Below, piece by piece: positions 10,204 through 45,178 of a stretch of 46,795 nucleotides of DNA; positions within the stretch are counted from its first letter, which is position 1, and each line of letters starts with the position of its first letter. The notes below the pieces were generated by a model. It did no database searches and had not been told where the DNA came from. It saw only the letters and a program-made list of their open reading frames with translations. A program made the translations under genes and the position numbers. Origin of the DNA: Bacteroidales bacterium (lineage in GTDB: Bacteria; Bacteroidota; Bacteroidia; Bacteroidales; JAHJDW01); the NCBI GenBank assembly GCA_029004185.1, contig JAQUPB010000005.1:1-46795 (forward strand), written 5' to 3'.

Positions 10204-11385
10204 TTATTTATTTTCGTTATTATTTTGTTCTTTAAATGCTTCAAAGTCGAATGTCAGGGAGAACCTGAGAGTGTTGGCAAGAGGACTTTTAACGTCTGAA
10301 GAAGCAGGAATTAAGTATGCGAAATCCAAACCGAAAACACTGTACTTTATGCCTGCGCCGAGTGTGAAAAACTGACGGTTTCCTTTTGTGGGATGTTCGT
10401 AAAAATAACCTCCTCTGATTGCAAACTGCTTGTCGTACCAATATTCAAGACCAACAGAATAAATTATTTCGTGTAATTCTTCCTTACCTCCTCCGGGTGC
10501 ATCGGAAAATGAATTGAACATTCCATTTACGATAGATACATCGGGCAGCCTATGTGTAATAGAATCAGGGTTTGGAGTAGGTACTAATAATTTGTTCACA
10601 TCGAAAAGAAAGCTTATTGTATTGTAATCGTCTAGGTTCATTAAAAGTGAAGGTCCTAGTTTAAGATTAATCGGGATAAAATCTCTTTCAGCTGATTCTG
10701 TATATGATATTTTTGCCCCGATATTTGAAATATTTATTCCTGCAGCAAAAACCGCATCCTGGTTTCCGATAGTAATTTCTTTATGATAATATGATGAAAT
10801 ATCAGCTGCAACTGATTGTCCGGCGTGAGTTGACTGGCTTCCCACAAATTGTCCGCTTGTTAAATTCGAGTAAATATAACGAAATGTGATTCCGCCTGAT
10901 AAATCTTCAGATAGTTTTCTTGAATAAGCTATGTCAACTGCAAACTCATTAGGTCTGTATTGTCCTGTAACATTTCCTACAACATCGGTAAAAGTTATAT
11001 CGCCAAGTGAAAAGTATAGCAATGATGCACTTAGTGTTTGCATTTTATCCAATCGTTTATAGACCGATAAATAAGCAAGATTGATATCGGGAACCAATGC
11101 TCTGAGCCATGGACTGTAAGAAATTCCAAAGCCCATGTTTTTTTCTATAAATGCAAATTTTGAAGCGTTCCAGTGATTTGAAAATACATCGGGAAGAGAA
11201 GAAACTCCGCCATCGCCCATTCCTCCGGCTCTTGCATCGGGAGCAATAAGCAAAAAAGGTACTGCTGTTGTAATAGTATTAACCTGTCCGGCTAATTCAC
11301 TTGTTGAAATTTGAGTGAATCCCCTTTCTGCAATTATTGTCAGCAGGAATAAAAATAAGAGATTTATTTTCAGAAGTAATTTCAT
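10204..11385 (-). CDS. porV: T9SS outer-membrane protein PorV (LptO)
   Basis: 393 residues with a signal peptide (about 1-24). The PorV hallmark follows: TAVPFLLIAPDARAGGMGD near residues 40-58, then SNHWNASKFAF. The rest is a FadL-like beta-barrel ending LRFSLTFDFEAF. PorV carries cargo from the SprA translocon to the PorU sortase by binding C-terminal sorting domains. It lies 33 nt downstream of porU and is followed by ispF, so the three genes are probably co-transcribed. Confidence 0.95.
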   Translation of the reverse strand: MKLLLKINLLFLFLLTIIAERGFTQISTSELAGQVNTITTAVPFLLIAPDARAGGMGDGGVSSLPDVFSNHWNASKFAFIEKNMGFGISYSPWLRALVPDINLAYLSVYKRLDKMQTLSASLLYFSLGDITFTDVVGNVTGQYRPNEFAVDIAYSRKLSEDLSGGITFRYIYSNLTSGQFVGSQSTHAGQSVAADISSYYHKEITIGNQDAVFAAGINISNIGAKISYTESAERDFIPINLKLGPSLLMNLDDYNTISFLFDVNKLLVPTPNPDSITHRLPDVSIVNGMFNSFSDAPGGGKEELHEIIYSVGLEYWYDKQFAIRGGYFYEHPTKGNRQFFTLGAGIKYSVFGLDFAYLIPASSDVKSPLANTLRFSLTFDFEAFKEQNNNENK

Positions 11386-11418
11386 ATTTTAATTAAACGC
11401 AAATATATAAAAAATATT

Positions 11419-14400
11419 TTATAATATAACTAATTTTTCATATTTCTCGGCAACAGAGCCATTATTTGAACGGACTTTCAAATGGTAAATATAAACTCCT
11501 CTTCCGATCTTATCACCATAGTCATCTGTTCCATCCCATACAATCTGGTCGAAGTCAACTCTGAAGCCCGCCGTTTCAACGGTTTTGTCAATTGTTTTGA
11601 TTAATTTACCTGAAACCGTAAATATTTTTACCTGTACGTTTAATGAGCAGCAGGGTTGATTATGCTCAAAATAAAATGAAGTATGAGTTGTAAACGGATT
11701 GGGATAATTCAGTACATGCTCGAGTTTTATTTCTGCCGACTTTGCTACAACAAATTCAGTATATGCTTCAGATGAATTGTTATATGTGTCCCATACTTTT
11801 AACTTGAGTTTGTGTTTCCCTTCAGGCAGATCGCTGAACTGATAACGGACTTTGCCTTTCTGATAACTGTTGAGGTCGGCTTCATAAAAATCGTTCAAAA
11901 CAAATGAGTTTTCTGCATCATCGTCGAGGGTTGCCACAACATCATGTCCTATGCCGTTACCAACAGTGTTTATTCCATTTGAATCACACAGGAAAGCAAG
12001 CAAAATGGGATTCTCATTTGTAATACCCCCTAAAACAAATTTATCATTATTAAGAAATAAGTTTATGTTTGGTCCTGCATTATCCGGCGGAGCATTATTA
12101 TTTGAGCCGCCTACAATTATATCTTTATTATATCCTTTGGCATCGTCGTTTTGTGAAGCGGCATAATAGCTTAGCTTTCCGTTTCCATATTGATAAGATA
12201 TGTCTTTAGGAACAACAAAAGTAAATTTATAATGTCCGTTTGTTACAGAAGCTTTTCCTTTATATAATACATTTTTCTGGAGCTTGAAACTTGTAATTAA
12301 ACTGTGTTCATCTTGTCCAAGTGTTGAAATTGTTGAGTATTTATCATATACGGTAGGGTAAATAATGCCGTTGAAATTGTTCAGGGGTTGCCCTAATGTG
12401 TCAGTCAAATCACCCTGAATGGTAACTTTTGAAAGTGCTTTTAGAGTATCAGAAAAAGAAGCAGTAGTTATTTCATATTTAGGCATTGCTAATTCCAGTG
12501 AAGGGTCCCCGAGTATTGTAAATACTTTATTATTAATACTTATCCCTGACAGTCCTTTTGCTAACCTCACTGCATCACCAAGCCGCGGATATCTGCCATC
12601 GTTCATTTTAGCGAAAACATTTCTATAAAAATTCATATTCAGCACATAGTTTGACTGAGAATAAGCCAGGCGGGTTGTTGTAAAAAGCGCTACCCCGCCT
12701 CCTGCAGGATTTAAAAATACAAATTCTCCTGCTGATACCTGATCAGGGTTGTCATAATAACTGAACTCACATGTGGCAGTTATGAACACAGGCATATTAT
12801 AAAAATTTTTCCAACTGTTTACATCCGAAATTTCCACAACACGTTCATGCGACAAGCCAATTGGACCTCCATGTCCAACATAATTCAATATTAAAGCTCC
12901 TTTTTCAACTCTCTGGTTTATGGCATTTGTAACTTCAGGGTAACGCTGTCCTCCCGGAGTTGATTCCTGTTTATAAGAATCAAAATATATTTTTTCAATG
13001 TTGAAATTTTTATAAGCGGTATCTACGTATTTGGCCATTAGCTCTGTCTGAGTTAAATGTATATTGTCGTCATCGTCATCAGCTACAAAGCATAATATGT
13101 TTCTCCATTCTGCATAATTTGATATGCCGTTTGATGAAGAGCAATCGGTACCTGCGGTTTGAAGCTCATTGTATTTTACCGAATATCTGATGGTTTTGTC
13201 AACTGCATTTTTTGCTTCATCAGAAGAAGTAACAGGAAAACGTCCTACTCCTACATCAATATAACCATATGCATCCATTCCTTCGCTGTCATCCATTAAA
13301 GCGTAAAAATCATCTGAAACATAAGAAGTGGTTGTTATGAGCGAACTTGCTGCTTCGTATGCAGGAACGTAGTTTGTATTATTTTTCAGACGGCTTTTAT
13401 AATCGTATGATCCGTCACCGAACAATAATAGATATTTTGGGAGTTCCTCTGGTGATAAAGCTTTGTCATATAACATTTTTACAAAATCTCTAATTGCTGA
13501 AACATCCTGCGAACCTGATGAAAACTCATTATATATCTGCTGAGTGGTCACTGTAGCTACACTGAAGTTGTCATTACTTCTGCGAAAATCAGCCAGCCTG
13601 TTGGCCTCACCAATAAATAACTGAGGTGCTACAATTACCAAATCAATTTTGCTTAATGAATGTAAATTCTGATTTGGTACTGAACCATAAAAGCTTGCCA
13701 TATAATAAAATGTACCGTCGAAAGAAATGAATTCTTTAAGAGAATCGTTTGCAACCCTGAAAGTTAGAGCTCCCGAATTATAAGTTGTTTCCTGCGCTTT
13801 AGGTTCAAGAGGATTTGTAATATCCCATACAATAAGGTTGGGATTTGAAGCAGATAAATGAAATTCGGAAATATTACCTGCACCGGCAGATAAGGCATCT
13901 CTGAAAGAAAGCTGATTTCCTGACATCATAAGATTTCTTCTTGTATTAATCTCAATATAATCGAGCCAGCCAGTTGTGCCCGAACTTGTCATGGCGATGT
14001 TGACATAAATTATGGATGATGAGGGTTTGAAAAATATTTCCGAAAAACCTTCTTTAGCAGCTTCACTATCACTACATATTCCTGTTGTTATCACATCTGT
14101 GTTTCCGTTTGCATTTACTTCAAAAACTGTATTTCCGCTGAAAGTTTTTCCTGCAACTTTTGTATAAACCTTAATGTTTGAATTTGCATCAATGTTAGGA
14201 AAAGAAAAGGAAAAGAGATATGAATTTATCTGTTCAAAATATTCTCCAAACCATTGCTTGCCAGATTTCCATAGGTTTAGTGAATCTTTTTCATGATATA
14301 AAAAATCATTAAAAGTGGTTACGGTATTTGTTGGCGCTGAAGTGTTTGAAGTTTGCACCGAAACTCTTTTCCCCGCTCCAAGGTCAGTTGTAAGAAAATA

Positions 14401-15243
14401 ATAAACTTCATTTGAATAAATATTGTTGGAATGATTGAAATACCCAGATGATTTGTCGTATGACCATTTGTTCGGTGACTGTCCGTAAAATAAAATGTAA
14501 TCACCTGCATCGAATTTACCGTCGCTTTCACCGCTTACAAATATTGCATTTTCAGCCAAATCATCAGGACGGGAATATGAATTGGCTTCGGGAAGCATTC
14601 TGCCTCCGTTGCCATAAATTCTTATGTTTCTTGGGTCAATTGAAGCAACTTCAATTCCGAGCTTTGCTAATTCGTCGTATGTTATTTTGTATATGCCATT
14701 ATAATAGGTTCCTATTTTATACCATTTGCCTGTGGCAAGAACAGAATTCTGGGCATAGGTATGTCTCATTTTACCTGCTATGGCAGAATAGCTTGGTGTT
14801 ATTTCTACCGATAATTCAAATGAAACCAGCTTTTCTAATTTATTTGTGGTTGGATTTTTTCTAATGGGAACAAAGGAAACAAGCACATAAGGAATTTTTC
14901 TTTCAATTAAAACATCCGATTTTATTAATATGTTACCAATTATTTTATCGAGGTTGTTTATTTGTTTCAGCTCTGCATCGGTAAAAGGAACATATGTTTC
15001 ATTTATGAATTTTGTCTTTATGCTGACATCCGGGCTTTCGGCAGATATTCTCTCGTTAAAGACAGGCAGGTCAAACTCATTGTAAGTCGCATCATTAAAG
15101 GAGAGAAGGATTACCTTGTAGTCATCTGAAAATTTTTCCTGGTGTATACTCCAACTTAATTCTTTTTTTATTAGTTTTGTAAAAGCATACGTATGCCCCA
15201 AAAAAAACAGCGTTAATATATAAATGTATAACCTTTTTCTCAT
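11419..15243 (-). CDS. porU: T9SS sortase PorU (gingipain-like C25 family)
   Basis: 1274 residues with a signal peptide. It cleaves the sorting domain of secreted proteins and attaches them to a surface lipopolysaccharide. The C25 peptidase domain spans about 535-900. The catalytic pair is visible as H791 in NYVGHGG and C825 in ITATCEF. An Asp-rich DDDDDN stretch near 723-728 may bind calcium. The C-terminus has a FlgD-like Ig fold (LNYPNPFTTHTSFYFEH) that resembles a sorting domain, as in characterised PorU. Upstream is a 269-bp AT-rich divergent region shared with porP/sprF. No frame breaks are seen. Confidence 0.95.
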   Translation of the reverse strand: MRKRLYIYILTLFFLGHTYAFTKLIKKELSWSIHQEKFSDDYKVILLSFNDATYNEFDLPVFNERISAESPDVSIKTKFINETYVPFTDAELKQINNLDKIIGNILIKSDVLIERKIPYVLVSFVPIRKNPTTNKLEKLVSFELSVEITPSYSAIAGKMRHTYAQNSVLATGKWYKIGTYYNGIYKITYDELAKLGIEVASIDPRNIRIYGNGGRMLPEANSYSRPDDLAENAIFVSGESDGKFDAGDYILFYGQSPNKWSYDKSSGYFNHSNNIYSNEVYYFLTTDLGAGKRVSVQTSNTSAPTNTVTTFNDFLYHEKDSLNLWKSGKQWFGEYFEQINSYLFSFSFPNIDANSNIKVYTKVAGKTFSGNTVFEVNANGNTDVITTGICSDSEAAKEGFSEIFFKPSSSIIYVNIAMTSSGTTGWLDYIEINTRRNLMMSGNQLSFRDALSAGAGNISEFHLSASNPNLIVWDITNPLEPKAQETTYNSGALTFRVANDSLKEFISFDGTFYYMASFYGSVPNQNLHSLSKIDLVIVAPQLFIGEANRLADFRRSNDNFSVATVTTQQIYNEFSSGSQDVSAIRDFVKMLYDKALSPEELPKYLLLFGDGSYDYKSRLKNNTNYVPAYEAASSLITTTSYVSDDFYALMDDSEGMDAYGYIDVGVGRFPVTSSDEAKNAVDKTIRYSVKYNELQTAGTDCSSSNGISNYAEWRNILCFVADDDDDNIHLTQTELMAKYVDTAYKNFNIEKIYFDSYKQESTPGGQRYPEVTNAINQRVEKGALILNYVGHGGPIGLSHERVVEISDVNSWKNFYNMPVFITATCEFSYYDNPDQVSAGEFVFLNPAGGGVALFTTTRLAYSQSNYVLNMNFYRNVFAKMNDGRYPRLGDAVRLAKGLSGISINNKVFTILGDPSLELAMPKYEITTASFSDTLKALSKVTIQGDLTDTLGQPLNNFNGIIYPTVYDKYSTISTLGQDEHSLITSFKLQKNVLYKGKASVTNGHYKFTFVVPKDISYQYGNGKLSYYAASQNDDAKGYNKDIIVGGSNNNAPPDNAGPNINLFLNNDKFVLGGITNENPILLAFLCDSNGINTVGNGIGHDVVATLDDDAENSFVLNDFYEADLNSYQKGKVRYQFSDLPEGKHKLKLKVWDTYNNSSEAYTEFVVAKSAEIKLEHVLNYPNPFTTHTSFYFEHNQPCCSLNVQVKIFTVSGKLIKTIDKTVETAGFRVDFDQIVWDGTDDYGDKIGRGVYIYHLKVRSNNGSVAEKYEKLVIL

Positions 15244-15512
15244 AAATAATTAAAAATATTTGTTAAAACACTTGTTTTTTGGATAAATTATTATTATATT
15301 TGAATTGTTGTTTAATTTTTGATTTTCGAAAAATGTTTTTTTATAAAATTATTCATTATATAATGTAACAAAAAAAATTAGAACAAGTAAAAGAGACAAT
15401 AATTTGTTTAGCATTTTTAAAACGACTTTTTACTTTTATTATTGTTTTTATTTAAAAATTTGTTTTTTTAATATTTTATTTTGTATTATTGTATTCTGAA
15501 ATAAAAAAAAAT
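15244..15512. other. Divergent regulatory region between porU and porP/sprF
   Basis: 269 bp, extremely AT-rich with long T and A runs, and no open reading frame of note. The promoters of both T9SS transcription units must lie here. I found only imperfect boxes: TTTG at 15459-15462 and TATTTTG at 15477-15483, with a short spacer. The exact promoters are not assigned. Confidence 0.5.
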
Positions 15513-16514
15513 ATGTTTAAGCGAACTTCATACATAATTTTAACGATATTTTTTCTTGCATTAGGCACGAAAACGAGTTTTTCACAAGATCCTGAATTCA
15601 CTCAGTATTATGCCAACCCGTTGTATTTAAATCCTGCCTTTGCCGGCTCGATTATGTGCCCGAGGTTGGTTTTTAATTTTCGCGACCAATGGCCTAATAT
15701 TCCAGGAACTTTTGTAACATATAGCACTTCGTACGACCAGCATGTAAATAGTTTGTTCGGCGGAATAGGTATTATGATATATAACGACAGAGCAGGCGAA
15801 GGAACAATTAACACTACTTCTGCAAGTTTTATGTATTCGTACAGAGGAGAAGTCTCAAAAAACTTTTCAATTAAAGCGGCATTACAGGCAACTTACGTGC
15901 AAAAAACCCTCGACTGGGATAAGCTTACATGGCCCGACATGATTAATCCAAAATATGGATTTATAAATTTAACTACCGAAAAGAAAATTGATACCAGAGT
16001 TTCTTATCCTGATTTTTCAGCAGGATTACTCGGATACTCCGATATGTTTTATGGAGGAGTTGCTGTTCATCATCTTACACAACCAAACGAAACATTCTTC
16101 AAACAAAAAAGTAATCTGCCCCGAAAATATACTGTGCATATAGGAACTATCGTTCCGATGGAAGGCAGAAGAAGAAAACACAGAAAAAGACTGAAGCCCG
16201 AAGATCCTGTGTTTTCACCCAACATTTTATATCAGCGCCAGGGCGAGTTCAGCCAGTTCAATTATGGTTTTTACTGTACAAAATATCCCGCAGTTGGCGG
16301 AGTATGGTTCAGACAATGCCCCAATAATGCAGACGCATTTATTGTTATGGTTGGTTTTATTCAGAACAGTTTTAAATTCGGATACAGTTATGATTTGACT
16401 ATTTCTTCTTTAACTACTGCAACAGCAGGAGCACACGAAATTTCCCTGTCAATGATGTTCCCATGCAGCCCTAGGAGGAAAAGAGCAAGAGTAATTATGT
16501 GTCCTTCATTCTAA
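15513..16514 (+). CDS. PorP/SprF family T9SS outer-membrane protein
   Basis: 333 residues from the ATG at 15513. An upstream in-frame TTG at 15489 would put a charged stretch before the signal peptide, so it is rejected. The signal peptide ends near TSFSQ. The mature N-terminus QDPEFTQYYANPLYLNPAFAGS is the family hallmark, followed by FRDQWPNIPG and TYSTSYDQ. The barrel ends with EISLSMMFPC and a basic Cys-containing tail. PorP is needed for secretion in P. gingivalis. SprF-like paralogues help individual type B cargo to the surface. Its place between porU and gldJ is unusual, and gldJ follows after 25 nt. Confidence 0.92.
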   Translation: MFKRTSYIILTIFFLALGTKTSFSQDPEFTQYYANPLYLNPAFAGSIMCPRLVFNFRDQWPNIPGTFVTYSTSYDQHVNSLFGGIGIMIYNDRAGEGTINTTSASFMYSYRGEVSKNFSIKAALQATYVQKTLDWDKLTWPDMINPKYGFINLTTEKKIDTRVSYPDFSAGLLGYSDMFYGGVAVHHLTQPNETFFKQKSNLPRKYTVHIGTIVPMEGRRRKHRKRLKPEDPVFSPNILYQRQGEFSQFNYGFYCTKYPAVGGVWFRQCPNNADAFIVMVGFIQNSFKFGYSYDLTISSLTTATAGAHEISLSMMFPCSPRRKRARVIMCPSF

Positions 16515-26095: not shown

Positions 26096-28075
26096 TTATT
26101 TGTTCAACTGCATGAACTCAAAATCACTTTTAAACACCGAATCGAGCGGAATGGAGTCGGGTTGCATAAGTTCGAATTTCGCGGGACCTTTAAGCTGAAC
26201 ATCGGGAACCAAGTTGTCGGCTTCTTCTTGTGAGATTTTCTCTTTTCTTAAAAGTATTTGCGCGATTATTCTGTAATACTCGGCAAGCCATTCAAGCAGG
26301 TGTTTATCCTTGTCAAAACTATATTTGAATAATCTCGGACGAGGGATAATGCTTGCCAGGTAAATATCTTCAGAAAGGGTAAGTTTCGAAACATCTTTGT
26401 TGAAATAATAATGAGCTGCTTCATTTGCTCCGTAAACCATAGGTCCCCATTCGATAATATTAAAATAAATTTCCAGCATTCTGTTTTTTGAAATAAGATT
26501 GTTGTTCTCAATAAGCCATACAATAAGCATTTCCTCGAGCTTGCGGGAAATTGTTTTTTTGCGGGTAAGAAAAAGATTTTTAACAAGTTGCATCGAAATT
26601 GTACTTCCTCCCCTTGCAAAGCGTCCTTCCTTTATGTTTGCAGCAATTGATTTCTTTATTGATTCTATTGCAAAACCTTTGTGCCATATAAAACCGCCGT
26701 CTTCATTTGTCATTACCACTTCTCTCAATAATTCCGGTATCTGCTCAAGTGTCCTGAAATTAGGATTTGCGGGACTTACTTCAAAAATTCTTACCGGTTC
26801 ATCTTTGTTATAAGCAGTGTATGTGAATGGTTCATTAACGTATCTGAAATCAACTTTTCCGAATTGTATTATTTTAAAATCCTTCCTTTTAAGCTCCGAT
26901 TGAAGTTTTACGGAATCCGGCAATGCTGTGTCAACAAAGAAGTTAAGATGGTATGATAATGTGCCTTTTACTTTTATCCCGTCGAGCTTTGAAAACAATT
27001 CTGCCGGCAATGAATCGAAAAAATCCTGCGCATTGAAATCTTTTTTATTTAAAATCAGAGTTATCTGTTTTGATGGCTTGGGTTTGTATTTTATATACGG
27101 ATTAAAATTTATTTTATTGAAAACAACCGAAGTTGCGCTGTCAACTTCGTAATAATCACTACCTATATTTAAAAAATAATTGATTGAGACTTTTGTAAGA
27201 TAAACATTATCGGAAGAAATTCGGGGGTGCTTTATAATTAAACCATTTGCGGAAAGTGTTCCGTCTAAGTTTAAAACTTTATTTGAAATACCGTTGTTCG
27301 AAAAGTTGAACTGAATGGTATCAAATGATACTTTCATATCGTATTTATTTTCAACAAAAGGAAATTTGACTTTATGCAAAAATGAACTTGAATATAATTT
27401 GAAAAAACATTGTTTTTTGCGGTTGTTCAGTTTGCCTTCTACAAGCCATTCGTAGTTTTCACCGGCATCTTTTATTTTTATTATTGTTTTAAAAGTGTTA
27501 TCCGATATATTGAGATTATCAATGTAAAAGCCAAGACTTTTCTTATTTATAACAGTGTTTACGGTAAAATCATGAATTTTTATTTTATCGGGAACAAAAC
27601 CGAAAATTGCATTCAGAAAGTCTTCTGTTTTTTCGGAGTAATTATAATTATCAGCAGTGGAAATTTCTTTTTTTACATTGGTTTTATTTACTAAAAAGGA
27701 ATAATTGTCGGAAATGCTGTCGGCAACAATTTTTACGTAAGATTTATCAAGTTCAATGTCGCTGAAAGTAAGCTTGCCTAAAAGCATTTTCCATATATTT
27801 ATTTTTGCAGCAGCGGATTCTACATTTATTAAAGTATCTTTATTTAAGGGCTTCAGGAAAATGTTATTAAGCACAATAGTATTGATTCCTCTGAACTTTA
27901 CTTTTCCTATATTCAGTTCGGCATTGTATTTTGCCTTAAACTGATTTATTTTTTTGTTTACATATAAATTCAGAAAAAAGTTGCGGAATAGAAATGAAAG
28001 AAATAATACAAATATAAAAACAGCAACCGGCAGGTAAACTCTATAGATTAGCTTTTTGGAAAAAAAATTAATCAT
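26096..28075 (-). CDS. GT51 peptidoglycan glycosyltransferase with AsmA-like N-terminal region
   Basis: 659 residues: an N-terminal membrane helix (about 12-35), a long region (about 40-420) of beta-rich repeats resembling AsmA-type periplasmic proteins, then a GT51 domain (about 430-620). GT51 motifs are NEDGGFIWHKGF with catalytic E458, RGGSTISMQLVKNLFLTRKKT, KLEEMLIVWLIE and RMLEIYFNIIEWG. No transpeptidase domain follows, so it resembles MtgA in activity, polymerising glycan strands from lipid II. The AsmA-like N-terminus is an assignment from appearance only. It is monocistronic and convergent with folC. Confidence 0.88.
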   Translation of the reverse strand: MINFFSKKLIYRVYLPVAVFIFVLFLSFLFRNFFLNLYVNKKINQFKAKYNAELNIGKVKFRGINTIVLNNIFLKPLNKDTLINVESAAAKINIWKMLLGKLTFSDIELDKSYVKIVADSISDNYSFLVNKTNVKKEISTADNYNYSEKTEDFLNAIFGFVPDKIKIHDFTVNTVINKKSLGFYIDNLNISDNTFKTIIKIKDAGENYEWLVEGKLNNRKKQCFFKLYSSSFLHKVKFPFVENKYDMKVSFDTIQFNFSNNGISNKVLNLDGTLSANGLIIKHPRISSDNVYLTKVSINYFLNIGSDYYEVDSATSVVFNKINFNPYIKYKPKPSKQITLILNKKDFNAQDFFDSLPAELFSKLDGIKVKGTLSYHLNFFVDTALPDSVKLQSELKRKDFKIIQFGKVDFRYVNEPFTYTAYNKDEPVRIFEVSPANPNFRTLEQIPELLREVVMTNEDGGFIWHKGFAIESIKKSIAANIKEGRFARGGSTISMQLVKNLFLTRKKTISRKLEEMLIVWLIENNNLISKNRMLEIYFNIIEWGPMVYGANEAAHYYFNKDVSKLTLSEDIYLASIIPRPRLFKYSFDKDKHLLEWLAEYYRIIAQILLRKEKISQEEADNLVPDVQLKGPAKFELMQPDSIPLDSVFKSDFEFMQLNK

Positions 28076-28184: not shown

Positions 28185-30509
28185 TTAAACATAATTAGTT
28201 CTTCCTCTCAGTCCGAAATATTTTTTCAGTGGTTTTGACACGGGCTTGAGTTTTTCGAGTATCATGAGCTCATATTTGTAATGTATTTTTGCATACGAAG
28301 GAAAATCGGTATGTTGTTTTATAGGCGTATTCATTATCTTTTCGAATTCCTCATCAGTCAGGTCGAACTTTTTAATGATGTATTTTTTATCTTCTGAAAT
28401 TTCATCTTCAATATAAGGAGGCTTTTTCATTTCGGCAAGTGCGTTTTCCCTTGTCGTTTGCCCTGAGCATATTAAAGTTGACAAATGTGCTTTCCTTTTA
28501 TCGATATTGAATTTTTTAGGTAAAATATACGACTGATAAAACTTCGTAAAAAGTGATTCGTTATGTTTGCCGCCGTAATCACGCCATCCGAGTTCATTTG
28601 TAACAATGGTCTTGGATTCATCTTTATTATAATTCACATAATTTAAAATGGGGAAAGTTCTTATACCAAGTAGGTTTATATAAGCGGCTTTTCTGAAATA
28701 CCCCATTTGCGGAAAAGTTGAAATTCTTTCTTTTCCATAACAGCTGTGAATGGATGTTATATTGAGCAAATCACTTTTCCAGTGCACCCAGTTCATGGGC
28801 ATGATTCCTTCTGTGGCGAAATTATGCCCGGTAATTATATAATCAACTTTATGTTTGGCTGCCAGCAAGTACAATGAAGCAACTATAGCATAGTCGGTAA
28901 CGAGCTCAATATCCACTACCGATGCTTTAAGGAATGAAAGTTGTATATCTTTAAATTCCTCCCAGTTAATAACCCATGTATGCAAATCAAATCCAAGTTT
29001 ACTTACAACGTATTCTATATTGCTCATTGCAAGTTCGGAATTCCATCCGTTGTCGAGGTGAACCAGCAAAGGCCGTAATCCGTATTGCTTTGCCAGATAA
29101 GCCGTATAAGTGCTATCAACACCTCCGCTTACACCAAGTATGGAATCATATTTTTTATTTTTGCCTTTATCTTTAATTTTCTTTATTATTTCGAGCATTT
29201 GTTTTTTGCCCAAGCTGTCACGGTGTATGATTTCTTTTGAGAATCTTTCGTACATTTTGCAGTAACTGCAAACACCGTCTTCATCAAATGTAATATCAGG
29301 ATCATCGTTTGTATCCATTATGCAATGACTGCACATTTGATATTGACGGACTGCATGAACGGACAATGTTTTCCTGTAAATTTCGTAAATTAATTTTCCG
29401 ACAACTTCAGGGTAAAATAAATTCCGGGCTTTGATTGAAATATCCTCCAGGTCATATTTGTCAATGTTCTCAATTGTCCTGCAAATGTTTTTCGAAAATG
29501 CTTCAACATCGCGCGGCGCCGACATCAGACCATTTGTTTCATTAATCAATTCCACAACGCCGTTGACGCTGTTGCTAACAACCGGACGGCCGCAGCAAAA
29601 ACTTTCAATAATGATGCAGGGAAGATTTTCGGCATTTGAAGGGTGAACAAGAAAATCGGCTTCCTGAAGATAATCTGCTATTTCCTTTTTTGTCCTTTTG
29701 CCAAGAAATTCTATTTTGATATCAAAATCGTTTTTTTTCAGATATTCCTGTACTTCTTCAACATATTTTCCTATCCCGACAAATTTTACTTCAATTCTTT
29801 TCCTGTAATTTTCGGGCAATAGCTTATAAGCATCAAAAAACAAAACAGGATTTTTCGGACCATCCCAAACGGCGGCCATCAGAATCCTGATTTTATCGTC
29901 TCTTTTGTTCCTTGGAGAGTACTTGAATACTTCGTTTGCTACATTCGGAATCGGAATAATTTTATCTTTGTCAACGTGGTATTCATTTACAAGAACGCTT
30001 CCAAGTTGCTTTGAAACCGGCATTACATACTTTATTTCGGTTTTTTTAAACCATTCCCGTATTTCATTTTTTTCCTGAATTATCTGCTTTTCGGGCAGGT
30101 TATATATTCCTGTATGATAAAATGAACTGTGTTCGGTAACTACAAAAGGAATTCCTTTAAGCTGTTTCAGTTCGAACATGTCTTTTGTGGTGTTGGTATG
30201 AACGTTAAGGTGGCAAATGTCGATGCGGGCGGTATTTTTTATTTTCGCAATTAAAATATTATATGCAAGTTTTATTGATTTCTCGTAAATGCCGAATCTT
30301 CGCAAGGGGCAATAAATTATGGCATTATAAACAGTTAAGTTGCGTTTTTCTTCTTTTACGATTTTTATGCTGAAAGGAAAATGCTTCCAGCTTTTTCTGA
30401 AATCAACCCTTACATCAAAAACATTGGAATATAATGCAGCGGCTTCTGCATGCTCACGCATGAAGTTTCCGCATTCAAGCCACCATCCCTCAACAAAGAG
30501 TATGTTCAT
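28185..30509 (-). CDS. Fusion: GT4 glycosyltransferase + N-acetyl-sugar amidotransferase (WbpG/PseA type)
   Basis: 774 residues. Residues 1 to about 385 form a GT-B glycosyltransferase of family 4, with the EX7E motif at E294/E302 (NAENLPCIIIE) and GRPVV after it. Residues about 388-774 are a PP-loop ATPase of the N-acetyl sugar amidotransferase family (TIGR03573). They begin with RQYQMCSHCIMDT, carry two CxxC pairs (C393/C396 and C414/C417), and have the PP-loop SGGVDS at 461-466. GHNFATEG and GWRDYGGKHNESLFTKFYQ follow. WbpG/PseA-type enzymes amidate acetamido sugars and usually need HisH/HisF-like partners to supply ammonia. None is nearby. Both halves look intact and in one frame. Its product is presumably a surface glycan. 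Confidence 0.9.
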   Translation of the reverse strand: MNILFVEGWWLECGNFMREHAEAAALYSNVFDVRVDFRKSWKHFPFSIKIVKEEKRNLTVYNAIIYCPLRRFGIYEKSIKLAYNILIAKIKNTARIDICHLNVHTNTTKDMFELKQLKGIPFVVTEHSSFYHTGIYNLPEKQIIQEKNEIREWFKKTEIKYVMPVSKQLGSVLVNEYHVDKDKIIPIPNVANEVFKYSPRNKRDDKIRILMAAVWDGPKNPVLFFDAYKLLPENYRKRIEVKFVGIGKYVEEVQEYLKKNDFDIKIEFLGKRTKKEIADYLQEADFLVHPSNAENLPCIIIESFCCGRPVVSNSVNGVVELINETNGLMSAPRDVEAFSKNICRTIENIDKYDLEDISIKARNLFYPEVVGKLIYEIYRKTLSVHAVRQYQMCSHCIMDTNDDPDITFDEDGVCSYCKMYERFSKEIIHRDSLGKKQMLEIIKKIKDKGKNKKYDSILGVSGGVDSTYTAYLAKQYGLRPLLVHLDNGWNSELAMSNIEYVVSKLGFDLHTWVINWEEFKDIQLSFLKASVVDIELVTDYAIVASLYLLAAKHKVDYIITGHNFATEGIMPMNWVHWKSDLLNITSIHSCYGKERISTFPQMGYFRKAAYINLLGIRTFPILNYVNYNKDESKTIVTNELGWRDYGGKHNESLFTKFYQSYILPKKFNIDKRKAHLSTLICSGQTTRENALAEMKKPPYIEDEISEDKKYIIKKFDLTDEEFEKIMNTPIKQHTDFPSYAKIHYKYELMILEKLKPVSKPLKKYFGLRGRTNYV

Positions 30510-40101: not shown

Positions 40102-41277
40102 ATGAAAAAAATAACTTATACTCTCATATGCCTTCTGTTTTTAAATGCAACATTAGTTGCCCAGTGGACAAAGCAAACAACCGGAGTAACATGCAAATTG
40201 AATTCCGTGTGCTTTACCAATGCAAATACAGGCTATGCCGTGGGTGATTACGGAACAATTCTAAAAACTACAAATGGAGGTAATAATTGGACAATTCAAA
40301 CAGTAGGTGATAGTACATCTTCTTTACAGTCTGTCTGTTTCCCAAGTTCCAATATTGGTTTTATTGTTGGATGGGGATGTAACGAAAGAATATTTAAAAC
40401 TACTAATGGGGGAGCAAGCTGGATATCTATAAGTAATAATTGTGCTCTTCTTGCTGAGCATTTTGTAAATACAAATGTTGGTTATATTGTAGGTAATGGT
40501 GTATTCAAAACTACTGATGGAGGAAATAACTGGATACAAAAAGGAGGTAATCAAATAAGTGTAACATCATTCGCTGTCTTCTTTACAAATTCAAATTGTG
40601 GCTATGTGGCTGCACAGGGTCCTGGAATATACAAAACCACTGATGGAGGGGACAATTGGTATCATAATAATTTAACGGGTTGGTTTTTTTCATTTTACTT
40701 TACCGATGAAAATACAGGATATGCTGTTGGTGATGGAGGAGAAATTGTTAAAACTACAAACGGAGGTATCAACTGGATAAATCAAACAAGCGGAACAACC
40801 ATTCCCTTGAGATCTGTTTGCTTTATCGATGCCAATATTGGATACGTTATTGGCTGGGATGGAATAATTATTAAAACAACTAATGGTGGAGTGAACTGGA
40901 CTACACAAATAAGCGGAATAATGGATAAATTACATTCTGTTTTCTTTGTTGATGCAAACACAGGGTACACTGTTGGGGATGGTGGTGTAATTTTGAAAAC
41001 TACAAACGGTGGGCAATGGGTAGAAGAAAAAAACAAAGAAGATATTTTTAGTGTTTTTCCAAACCCTGCAACAAATAATTTAACAATAGAAATTCCGCAG
41101 TCAACAACTGAAAACACAGTTATAATTTTTAATATAAACGGACAGGAACAGATAAAACAAAAAATTACTGAAAGCAAAACACAAATAGATGTAGGCAACC
41201 TGACAAACGGAGTTTATTTCATAAAAGTTACTAATGAAAAAGGAGTGAGCGTGAAAAAAATTATAAAAAATGAATAA
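40102..41277 (+). CDS. Secreted Ycf48/BNR-repeat protein with T9SS type A sorting domain
   Basis: 391 residues with a signal peptide (about 1-20, ending VAQ). Seven repeats of the form (N/D)xNxGYxVGxxGxIxKTTxGGxxW, each about 40-45 residues, span 25-310 and should form a beta-propeller like the plant/cyanobacterial assembly factor Ycf48. The C-terminal about 80 residues are a type A sorting domain (VFPNPATNNLTIEIP, then YFIKVTNEKGVSVKKIIKNE), so the protein is T9SS cargo, processed by a PorU-type sortase. The ligand is unknown. Confidence 0.92.
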   Translation: MKKITYTLICLLFLNATLVAQWTKQTTGVTCKLNSVCFTNANTGYAVGDYGTILKTTNGGNNWTIQTVGDSTSSLQSVCFPSSNIGFIVGWGCNERIFKTTNGGASWISISNNCALLAEHFVNTNVGYIVGNGVFKTTDGGNNWIQKGGNQISVTSFAVFFTNSNCGYVAAQGPGIYKTTDGGDNWYHNNLTGWFFSFYFTDENTGYAVGDGGEIVKTTNGGINWINQTSGTTIPLRSVCFIDANIGYVIGWDGIIIKTTNGGVNWTTQISGIMDKLHSVFFVDANTGYTVGDGGVILKTTNGGQWVEEKNKEDIFSVFPNPATNNLTIEIPQSTTENTVIIFNINGQEQIKQKITESKTQIDVGNLTNGVYFIKVTNEKGVSVKKIIKNE

Positions 41278-43399: not shown

Positions 43400-45178
43400 T
43401 TAATCCAACTTCACTAACCTTTTCGAAAATACTTTGTTTCCTGATGTTATCTTTACAAAATATATTCCACTTACGAAATTTTTTATACTTATTATATTTT
43501 TACTGCCATTGATTTGTTTTGTTAAAACCAACTTTCCTGAGCAATCATAAATGCTTATCAAATCACTTTTTTCTGCATCTTTCAGTTCAACGGTTATTTC
43601 ATTATCAGCAGGATTTGGATAAAGTGAAAAATTTTCTTTTGAAAATTTATTTTTAATTTCTTTCACACCTGCATTACTTTGGCATGGTGAAACCAATGAA
43701 TCGGAAAAATGTTTTCTCAGGGTATCTATTCGTTGCTTTACAGTTATTACCGAAGCATAATTATCGGTATCGTTAAAGTTTCTTGCAAAAACATAAGCTA
43801 AATCCACTTGTTGAACCGAGTTTGACTGAAAAGTAAACGGACCCATACTTCCTAAACCTCTTCTGTCGTAAGGCACATTGCCTAAAGTTTCTTCATACCA
43901 ATCATTAGGGTTACAATTGGGAGTTTTGCCTCCTGTCCCCCAATGGTATGGATCGGAATCACAGGGATATATAAAATTAGTTTCCGGTCCGCAAGTGCCA
44001 TCGTGTCCGTCGCCTCCATATTGCATTCTAATACTCTCTCTCCAGTATCCTTTTAAATAATTATAATACTCGGCAGCATTTACAGGATCACCTATAGGAG
44101 CTGATGTATTATTAAAACTAAAAAATCCGCATAAACCTAATCTTTCGTTATCAATAATACTATCACCAAAACCATTACCATTAATGCCATTCCATGCGGG
44201 ATCGCTGATTGAAGGTAAATTATTATAATCCCATTTATCATCTTTACCGTTAGGATCCATATAAGGACCTGCTAAAACAACTACTGCTTCTGCTGGTGGT
44301 GGTTTATCGTATGCTAATTGCCCGCCTGCTGGAGTATCCTGATTATCGCCATTATAACCAAAAAAACTTCCTCTTTGAACATCGCAGCCTATATAGTCGT
44401 CATAAGCTCCCCCAATATCAAAGTCAACCCAATGCCCGATATAAGTATCATGGTAAGTATTTGAAGAACGGTTAAATATTTTGTAATTAAGAAAAATTGT
44501 ATTGTGGTAAACGGAATCCAAACAACTGTATGCATAAGCCATACAATGAATTTCAATTCTAAGCTTATTCCCTTTGCTTTCGGAATGAACCTTTCTATCA
44601 TCATTAATGATATAAAATATTGCCTGGTCGCCCAATATTAAAGGATAATCGCCAGCCATAGGATTATAATATCCATCGCCATCAAAATCAAAATAAGGTG
44701 CAAGATCTTGCGCCTGTCCGAGTATTGTATTGCCATTTCCGGGCCATGTGGCAATTGCATCAATGGGAATATAACCCGGCTTACCATAGTTTGCTTTGTG
44801 GTAATCAATATCTGTAATATTTAATTTCCATGCTTTATTCCATGTAACATCATAGGCAGAATCGTAAGTATCCGAAACTGGTCCCTGAAAAAAATCACCT
44901 CCAACTTGCCGATACCTTTCTGCGGCACAATGAAGAGTATCCACACTATCAAGTCCTGCAAGCCATAGAGTAGATGTAAAGACAGTATGATGATTGCTGC
45001 CTTTTGGAACTTCAAATCTCGGATGTCCTATGAAATCCCAGAACAAATTATTATTTGAATTTATTCTTGCATTAACATTATTAATGTCTAAATTTTCAAA
45101 AGCCACATTCTGCGACATCGAGGGGCTTGCAGTAATCATCAAATACAGTAAACAAAGTTTGAGTATAATTTTTTTCAT
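43400..45178 (-). CDS. Secreted protein with T9SS type A sorting domain
   Basis: 592 residues with a signal peptide (about 1-22, ending SMSQ). The body (about 25-500) has VFTSTLWLAGLD, a Ca-binding-like DFDGDGYYNPMAGDYP motif, HWVDFDIGG and many Asp/Asn/Gly loops. It has no enzyme motif I recognise. Large secreted proteins of this kind, with the phrase leading to WLAGLD, are common in uncultured Bacteroidota but have no known function. The C-terminal about 75 residues are a type A sorting domain (SLYPNPADNEITVEL to IYFVKITSGNKVFSKRLVKLD). It is therefore T9SS cargo, probably anchored by PorU. Confidence 0.88.
   Translation of the reverse strand: MKKIILKLCLLYLMITASPSMSQNVAFENLDINNVNARINSNNNLFWDFIGHPRFEVPKGSNHHTVFTSTLWLAGLDSVDTLHCAAERYRQVGGDFFQGPVSDTYDSAYDVTWNKAWKLNITDIDYHKANYGKPGYIPIDAIATWPGNGNTILGQAQDLAPYFDFDGDGYYNPMAGDYPLILGDQAIFYIINDDRKVHSESKGNKLRIEIHCMAYAYSCLDSVYHNTIFLNYKIFNRSSNTYHDTYIGHWVDFDIGGAYDDYIGCDVQRGSFFGYNGDNQDTPAGGQLAYDKPPPAEAVVVLAGPYMDPNGKDDKWDYNNLPSISDPAWNGINGNGFGDSIIDNERLGLCGFFSFNNTSAPIGDPVNAAEYYNYLKGYWRESIRMQYGGDGHDGTCGPETNFIYPCDSDPYHWGTGGKTPNCNPNDWYEETLGNVPYDRRGLGSMGPFTFQSNSVQQVDLAYVFARNFNDTDNYASVITVKQRIDTLRKHFSDSLVSPCQSNAGVKEIKNKFSKENFSLYPNPADNEITVELKDAEKSDLISIYDCSGKLVLTKQINGSKNIISIKNFVSGIYFVKITSGNKVFSKRLVKLD

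Follow-up and report, generated by a model that had tools for sequence, protein, structure and literature searches.

N-acetyl sugar amidotransferases (NASATs) of the WbuX/WbpG type, with LpNASAT (PDB 8wex) as a described member, are believed to convert an N-acetyl group into an acetamidino group at the expense of ATP and ammonia, and the PP-loop SGGXDS and the zinc tetracysteine CXXC..[GN]XCXXC are stated features of the family (PMC10607449). The AglZ/HisF2 acetamidino system (NF038364), which includes HisH, is encoded as a three-gene cassette. Retaining GT4 glycosyltransferases are characterised by a GT-B fold, an EX7E motif and conserved donor-side residues. Here we describe a gene in a 46,795-nucleotide stretch of DNA from a Bacteroidales bacterium (the window) that joins a GT4 glycosyltransferase to a NASAT in a single polypeptide. 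The full-length TIGR03573 domain, the PP-loop and the zinc tetracysteine are common to LpNASAT and the window protein, and the window genome encodes HisH and HisF2 homologues as expected for a WbuX/WbpG-type NASAT. Unlike LpNASAT-type enzymes, the window NASAT has an N-terminal glycosyltransferase, is not located in a polysaccharide cluster and has unlinked partners. The HisF2 homologue passes the NF038364 cut-off and by similarity the HisH homologue belongs to the amidation type, whereas both are lone genes on separate contigs and not part of a cassette. The glycosyltransferase half shares the fold, the EX7E motif and the conserved donor-side residues with GT4 enzymes and differs from known ones in being joined to a NASAT. 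The window gene is a variant of known enzymes.

The fusion gene and its junction

The gene starts with ATG, contains no internal stop codon and encodes a complete GT4 domain arranged head to tail with a complete NASAT domain (Table 1). An intact EX7E motif in the glycosyltransferase and a complete PP-loop amidotransferase in the same chain had been proposed in a first-pass annotation, and both are borne out by our data. The GT4 domain scores above cut-off for PF00534 (81.6 bits), PF13692 (76.6 bits) and PF13439 (34 bits). Aligned with 14 unfused GT4 homologues of 25-30% identity, it carries all 23 of the 23 invariant positions; H127, K219 and N220 are invariant in the 15 sequences as are E294 and E302. 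The AlphaFold2 model of the isolated domain (pLDDT 84, pTM 0.86) has a GT-B fold, and Foldseek returned GT4 enzymes including MshA, BshA and PglA, most of them with TM scores of 0.70-0.77 and with MshA as the top match (TM about 0.75). By fold the domain is nearest to MshA (3c4q), by sequence it is near PglA (8dqd), HepE (4xso) and GT4s that occur unfused in related genomes. As the closest unfused relatives are only 25-30% identical, donor and acceptor cannot be read from this comparison.

The NASAT domain matches TIGR03573 (WbuX) with 281.8 bits against a cut-off of 203.2, covering profile positions 2-344 of 344. In an alignment of the window sequence with 36 further NASATs (37 rows), S461, G462, G463, D465 and S466 of the PP-loop are invariant, and the window NASAT retains the four zinc cysteines and all remaining invariant positions. 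In a model of the full-length protein the NASAT half is confident, while the N-terminal domain of the glycosyltransferase stays below a pLDDT of 50 to about residue 138, owing to the small number of alignment rows covering that part, and the model is therefore no guide to how the domains are placed relative to each other.

Table 1. Features of the fusion gene in the window (minus strand throughout)
Feature	Positions	Strand	Basis
GT4-NASAT fusion gene, single open frame, 774 aa	28185..30509	-	Pfam and NCBIfam
GT4 domain, residues 1-384, GT-B fold	29358..30509	-	PF00534/PF13692/PF13439; 14 unfused homologues; AlphaFold2/Foldseek
EX7E motif, E294-E302	29604..29630	-	invariant in 15/15 aligned GTs
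Junction, residues 379-392	29334..29375	-	unfused homologues (length of tail and head); other frames
NASAT (WbuX/WbpG) domain, residues 391-727	28329..29339	-	TIGR03573; pLDDT about 90-98 for most of the domain in the full-length model
First zinc CXXC, C393/C396	29322..29333	-	motif definition from PMC10607449
Second zinc CXXC, C414/C417, within GVCSYC	29259..29270	-	alignment
PP-loop SGGVDS, residues 461-466	29112..29129	-	alignment

Only 14 residues separate the last conserved residue of the glycosyltransferase, Y378, from the first zinc cysteine, C393. The native tail following the equivalent tyrosine comprises 4-10 residues in the 14 unfused glycosyltransferases, and the native head preceding the first cysteine mostly 5-12 residues in unfused NASATs. 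The junction equals the sum of both and consists of a native tail and a native head, with neither linker nor truncation. The same precision, together with the origin of the sequence from one draft assembly of 273 contigs, would be compatible with two adjacent genes joined by a sequencing or assembly error, for which a single wrong base in a stop codon might suffice. We regard this as highly improbable. A one-base indel would shift the stop of the glycosyltransferase to codon 397 or 402 and imply a tail of 19-24 residues, longer than that of every homologue, GC content and codon use are constant across the junction, and in the NASAT clade to which the window belongs nine of ten members are fused. 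Our analyses confirm the observation of one open frame with two complete domains, and the fusion is very probably genuine.

NASAT fusions in related genomes

The exact pairing of the window's GT4 (type A) with a NASAT was found in no other genome among those searched, while its architecture was. Within the order, 38 of 393 genomes encode a NASAT above cut-off, five of them, including that of the window, in an open reading frame of more than 700 residues. In four genomes of the order, not counting the window, the fusion partner is a different GT4, type B (B, PPYVSVGGLRPY), which also occurs unfused beside a NASAT (G065). Within the class, 129 of 395 genomes pass the cut-off, and NASAT reading frames over 600 residues are present in at least 16 genomes apart from that of the window. 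A third GT4, type C, is the partner in five f176 and two f198 genomes, types B and C together being fused to NASATs in 11 genomes. Further N-terminal partners are a GT2 (G944), a hexapeptide acetyltransferase (G1078), AsnB (G1106) and a class-II glutaminase; the N-terminal domains of five fusions (G966, G1017, G906, G928, G932) have no Pfam match. These fusions have in common with the window protein a NASAT near the C-terminal side and a partner from sugar or ammonia metabolism, and differ from it in partner lineage. The expectation that these amidotransferases are separate chains thus does not hold as a rule in this class, in which NASAT fusions are frequent and their partners varied.

A phylum sample contained no above-cut-off NASAT reading frame of this length besides the window, GTDB r220 contigs queried with the fusion protein returned only unfused NASATs, one 660-residue acetyltransferase fusion and one distant glycosyltransferase, no plasmid or phage record covered 80% of the query and matches in viral contigs were NASAT homologues only. 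In the literature searched, the coverage of which is incomplete, we found no description of such fusions.

Several unusual loci were seen on the way. Among unfused NASATs, the one closest to that of the window (G305) is followed directly downstream by locus L110 (5735-8314), which encodes an 859-residue tandem of two type-B-like glycosyltransferase domains. At L174 (2022-6041; G595), a NASAT-like PP-loop domain forms part of an NRPS-like protein, which also has condensation, AMP-binding and carrier domains. In G047 an intact type B fusion is closely preceded by broken HisH, HisF and NASAT pieces (L047, 1609-3363), which look as if an older cassette had decayed.

In a tree of 60 NASATs the fused state needs eight changes, and well-supported branches force at least five gains or losses. 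Constraining the window and type B fusions to one clade was rejected (p-AU 0.0007), and with it a common origin of the two. The window NASAT is sister to that of L167 (99/85) within the ten-member, largely fused clade (98/97). Its glycosyltransferase scores 110 bits against unfused GT4s and at most 39 against those of type C fusions, so that the partners differ and a glycosyltransferase origin shared with the latter was rejected. As it is nearer to unfused GT4s than to the type C glycosyltransferases of its own NASAT clade, either the partner was exchanged or the fusions arose independently.

This recurrence bears on whether the domains cooperate at all. A neutral fusion, in which loss of a stop codon between two adjacent envelope-glycan genes left two independent domains acting on unrelated sugars, would fit the complete lack of a linker, the restriction of the exact pairing to one genome, the wide variation among partners and the frequent glycosyltransferase neighbours of NASAT genes, which directly adjoin unfused NASATs at L071, L073 and L066. 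We judge it rather improbable, since the fusions have several origins, since most of the partners are glycosyltransferases or enzymes of the same sugar pathways, and since one fusion type has been kept in five species belonging to one genus and in two from a different family. The repeated, independent NASAT-glycosyltransferase fusions suggest instead that amidation and transfer are linked, as the first-pass annotation had proposed.

Partner genes and the order of amidation and transfer

A search for unlinked hisH and hisF paralogues, which had been advised for this gene, was successful. HisH-type genes lie on contigs C99 and C87 and HisF/HisA-type genes on C16, C64 and C87 of the window genome. 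The C16 HisF reaches 362 bits against NF038364 (AglZ/HisF2; cut-off 310) and is the sole AglZ/HisF2 above cut-off in the genome, the C64 copy being a canonical HisF cut by the contig end. The C99 HisH is 54% identical to HisH of an amidation cassette, compared to 37% for the HisH of the his operon (C87). The fusion, the amidation-type HisH and HisF2 are each a lone gene on three separate contigs. On C99 nine bases separate the HisH gene from the Kdo-transferase-like gene that follows it on the same strand (L116, 2-1117), which may hint at the LPS core or may be due to chance. Co-evolution of the C16 HisF2 with the window NASAT is not seen in the trees; in the HisF2 tree the C16 gene is not placed with the partners of the window NASAT clade. 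HisH and HisF2 genes are also present in most other genomes with GT4-NASAT fusions: in G320, five species of f176 and two of f198 they generally lie elsewhere than the fusion, and in G260 they follow it directly as a pair. G305, which encodes an unfused close relative of the window NASAT, has them too. HisF2 above cut-off is absent in G295 and G1072, and that of f198 is below cut-off.

WbpE-, WbpD-, WbpB- and WbpA-like genes are grouped on contig C39 of the window genome, as they are in G305 and, apart from WbpE, in two f176 genomes. A 2,3-diacetamido uronic acid, the kind of sugar modified by WbpG, is accordingly a plausible substrate. In Porphyromonas, Wbp genes serve the synthesis of the sugar linking type IX cargo to LPS (PMC7468200), so that the presence of such genes by itself does not name a substrate.

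We show both domains being intact, the partner and Wbp genes being present and the fusion type being recurrent; the activities, the substrate, the order of the steps and the supply of ammonia in trans are what we infer from these sequences. The gene product may be a bifunctional envelope-glycan enzyme that amidates a nucleotide sugar and then transfers it, a reading to which we give about even chances. In the NASAT domain, ATP and the PP-loop would serve to activate the acetamido carbonyl group; the N-acetylated sugar concerned is most plausibly the 2,3-diacetamido uronic acid made by the C39 Wbp enzymes. Glutamine-derived ammonia, supplied in trans by the unlinked HisH and AglZ/HisF2 homologues, would convert the activated carbonyl into an acetamidino group, and the fused retaining GT4 would transfer the amidinated sugar to its acceptor. 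Amidation would most likely take place on the nucleotide sugar just before transfer, and the fusion would therefore join two consecutive steps.

The fusion partners can be sorted by the step they would serve: acetyltransferases would act before amidation, the glutaminase type would supply ammonia and glycosyltransferases would act afterwards. With partners on both sides of amidation, the simplest reading places the NASAT between acetylation and transfer, and a nucleotide-sugar substrate is favoured over a lipid-bound one. Two acetyltransferase-NASAT fusions, L009 and L168, bear on this point, the partner acting on a nucleotide sugar at least in L009. In this protein, from an Oscillospiraceae genome of another phylum, the domain joined to the NASAT has its closest match in the acetyltransferase of 3mqg (E 9e-61), WlbB, which 3-N-acetylates a nucleotide sugar, and the neighbouring genes encode a nucleotide-sugar dehydrogenase, an aminotransferase and an oxidoreductase. 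A WlbB/WbpD-type fusion within a nucleotide-sugar cluster suggests that the lipid-bound sugar considered in the first-pass annotation is the less favoured substrate.

The same bifunctional enzyme might nevertheless work in the reverse order, the glycosyltransferase acting first and the NASAT amidating the sugar on a lipid carrier or a growing glycan. Glycosyltransferase fusions as such leave the order of the two steps unset, the acetamidino group has been placed on the first sugar of the O-unit (PMC10607449), and L167 (3002-4780; G1072) consists of a NASAT and only the N-terminal, acceptor-side half of a GT4, as expected if this half brings a lipid-linked substrate. Given the acetyltransferase fusions, we consider this order improbable, if still to be reckoned with. 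Further points count against amidation followed by transfer with ammonia supplied in trans. L167, the sister of the window NASAT, lacks the donor half of the glycosyltransferase and its genome has no HisH or HisF2 match, and the G295 fusion occurs without an above-cut-off HisF2. The window genome contains five NASAT or NASAT-like genes and one fragment, and HisH and HisF2 could mainly serve other NASATs among these (C124, C30). On C30, a 682-residue protein (L005, 1468-3516) combines a class-II glutamine amidotransferase with a PP-loop domain resembling that of NASATs, which at 130 bits stays below the cut-off, and may carry its own glutaminase in place of HisH; several further Bacteroidota genomes contain reading frames of comparable size and score.

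Genomic setting and significance

The gene had been described as standing alone among housekeeping genes. We find it apart from any O-antigen cluster, surrounded by unrelated housekeeping and type IX genes. The window contains no polysaccharide cluster and no hisH and hisF beside the gene; a place within such a cluster is habitual for NASATs but does not define the enzyme. The neighbours of the gene encode a DUF748-like/transglycosylase protein, a short unassigned protein, a protein that matches class-II glutamine amidotransferases and an M19 dipeptidase. Farther off are genes for Mur-ligase-type and FolC-like ligases, AnmK, an MscS-like channel and ribosomal protein L25. The first of the neighbours (26096-28075; 659 residues) has a peptidoglycan transglycosylase domain behind a weak DUF748 (AsmA-like) match. 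The window also carries type IX secretion genes (10204-16514) for PorV, a PorU-like C25 peptidase and PorP/SprF, and type IX sorting domains are present in the proteins encoded at 319-690, 40102-41277 and 43400-45178.

A role of the window fusion in a type IX glycan is speculation, prompted by the type IX genes of the genome. In a wider and decidedly unlikely scenario, glycosyltransferase-NASAT fusions would form, together with dispersed HisH and HisF2 genes, a core pathway that is conserved in Bacteroidota and scattered over the chromosome. Its acetamidino sugar would go onto an envelope glycan that is constant, e.g. the lipid-anchored glycan of type IX cargo, and not onto a variable O-antigen. 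With NASATs fused both to an enzyme acting before amidation, the acetyltransferase, and to enzymes acting after it, the glycosyltransferases, the stage at which the acetamidino group is installed on bacterial glycans, nucleotide sugar or lipid-linked unit, becomes directly testable with single proteins, and NASAT fusions could possibly be used as one-pot catalysts for amidino sugars.
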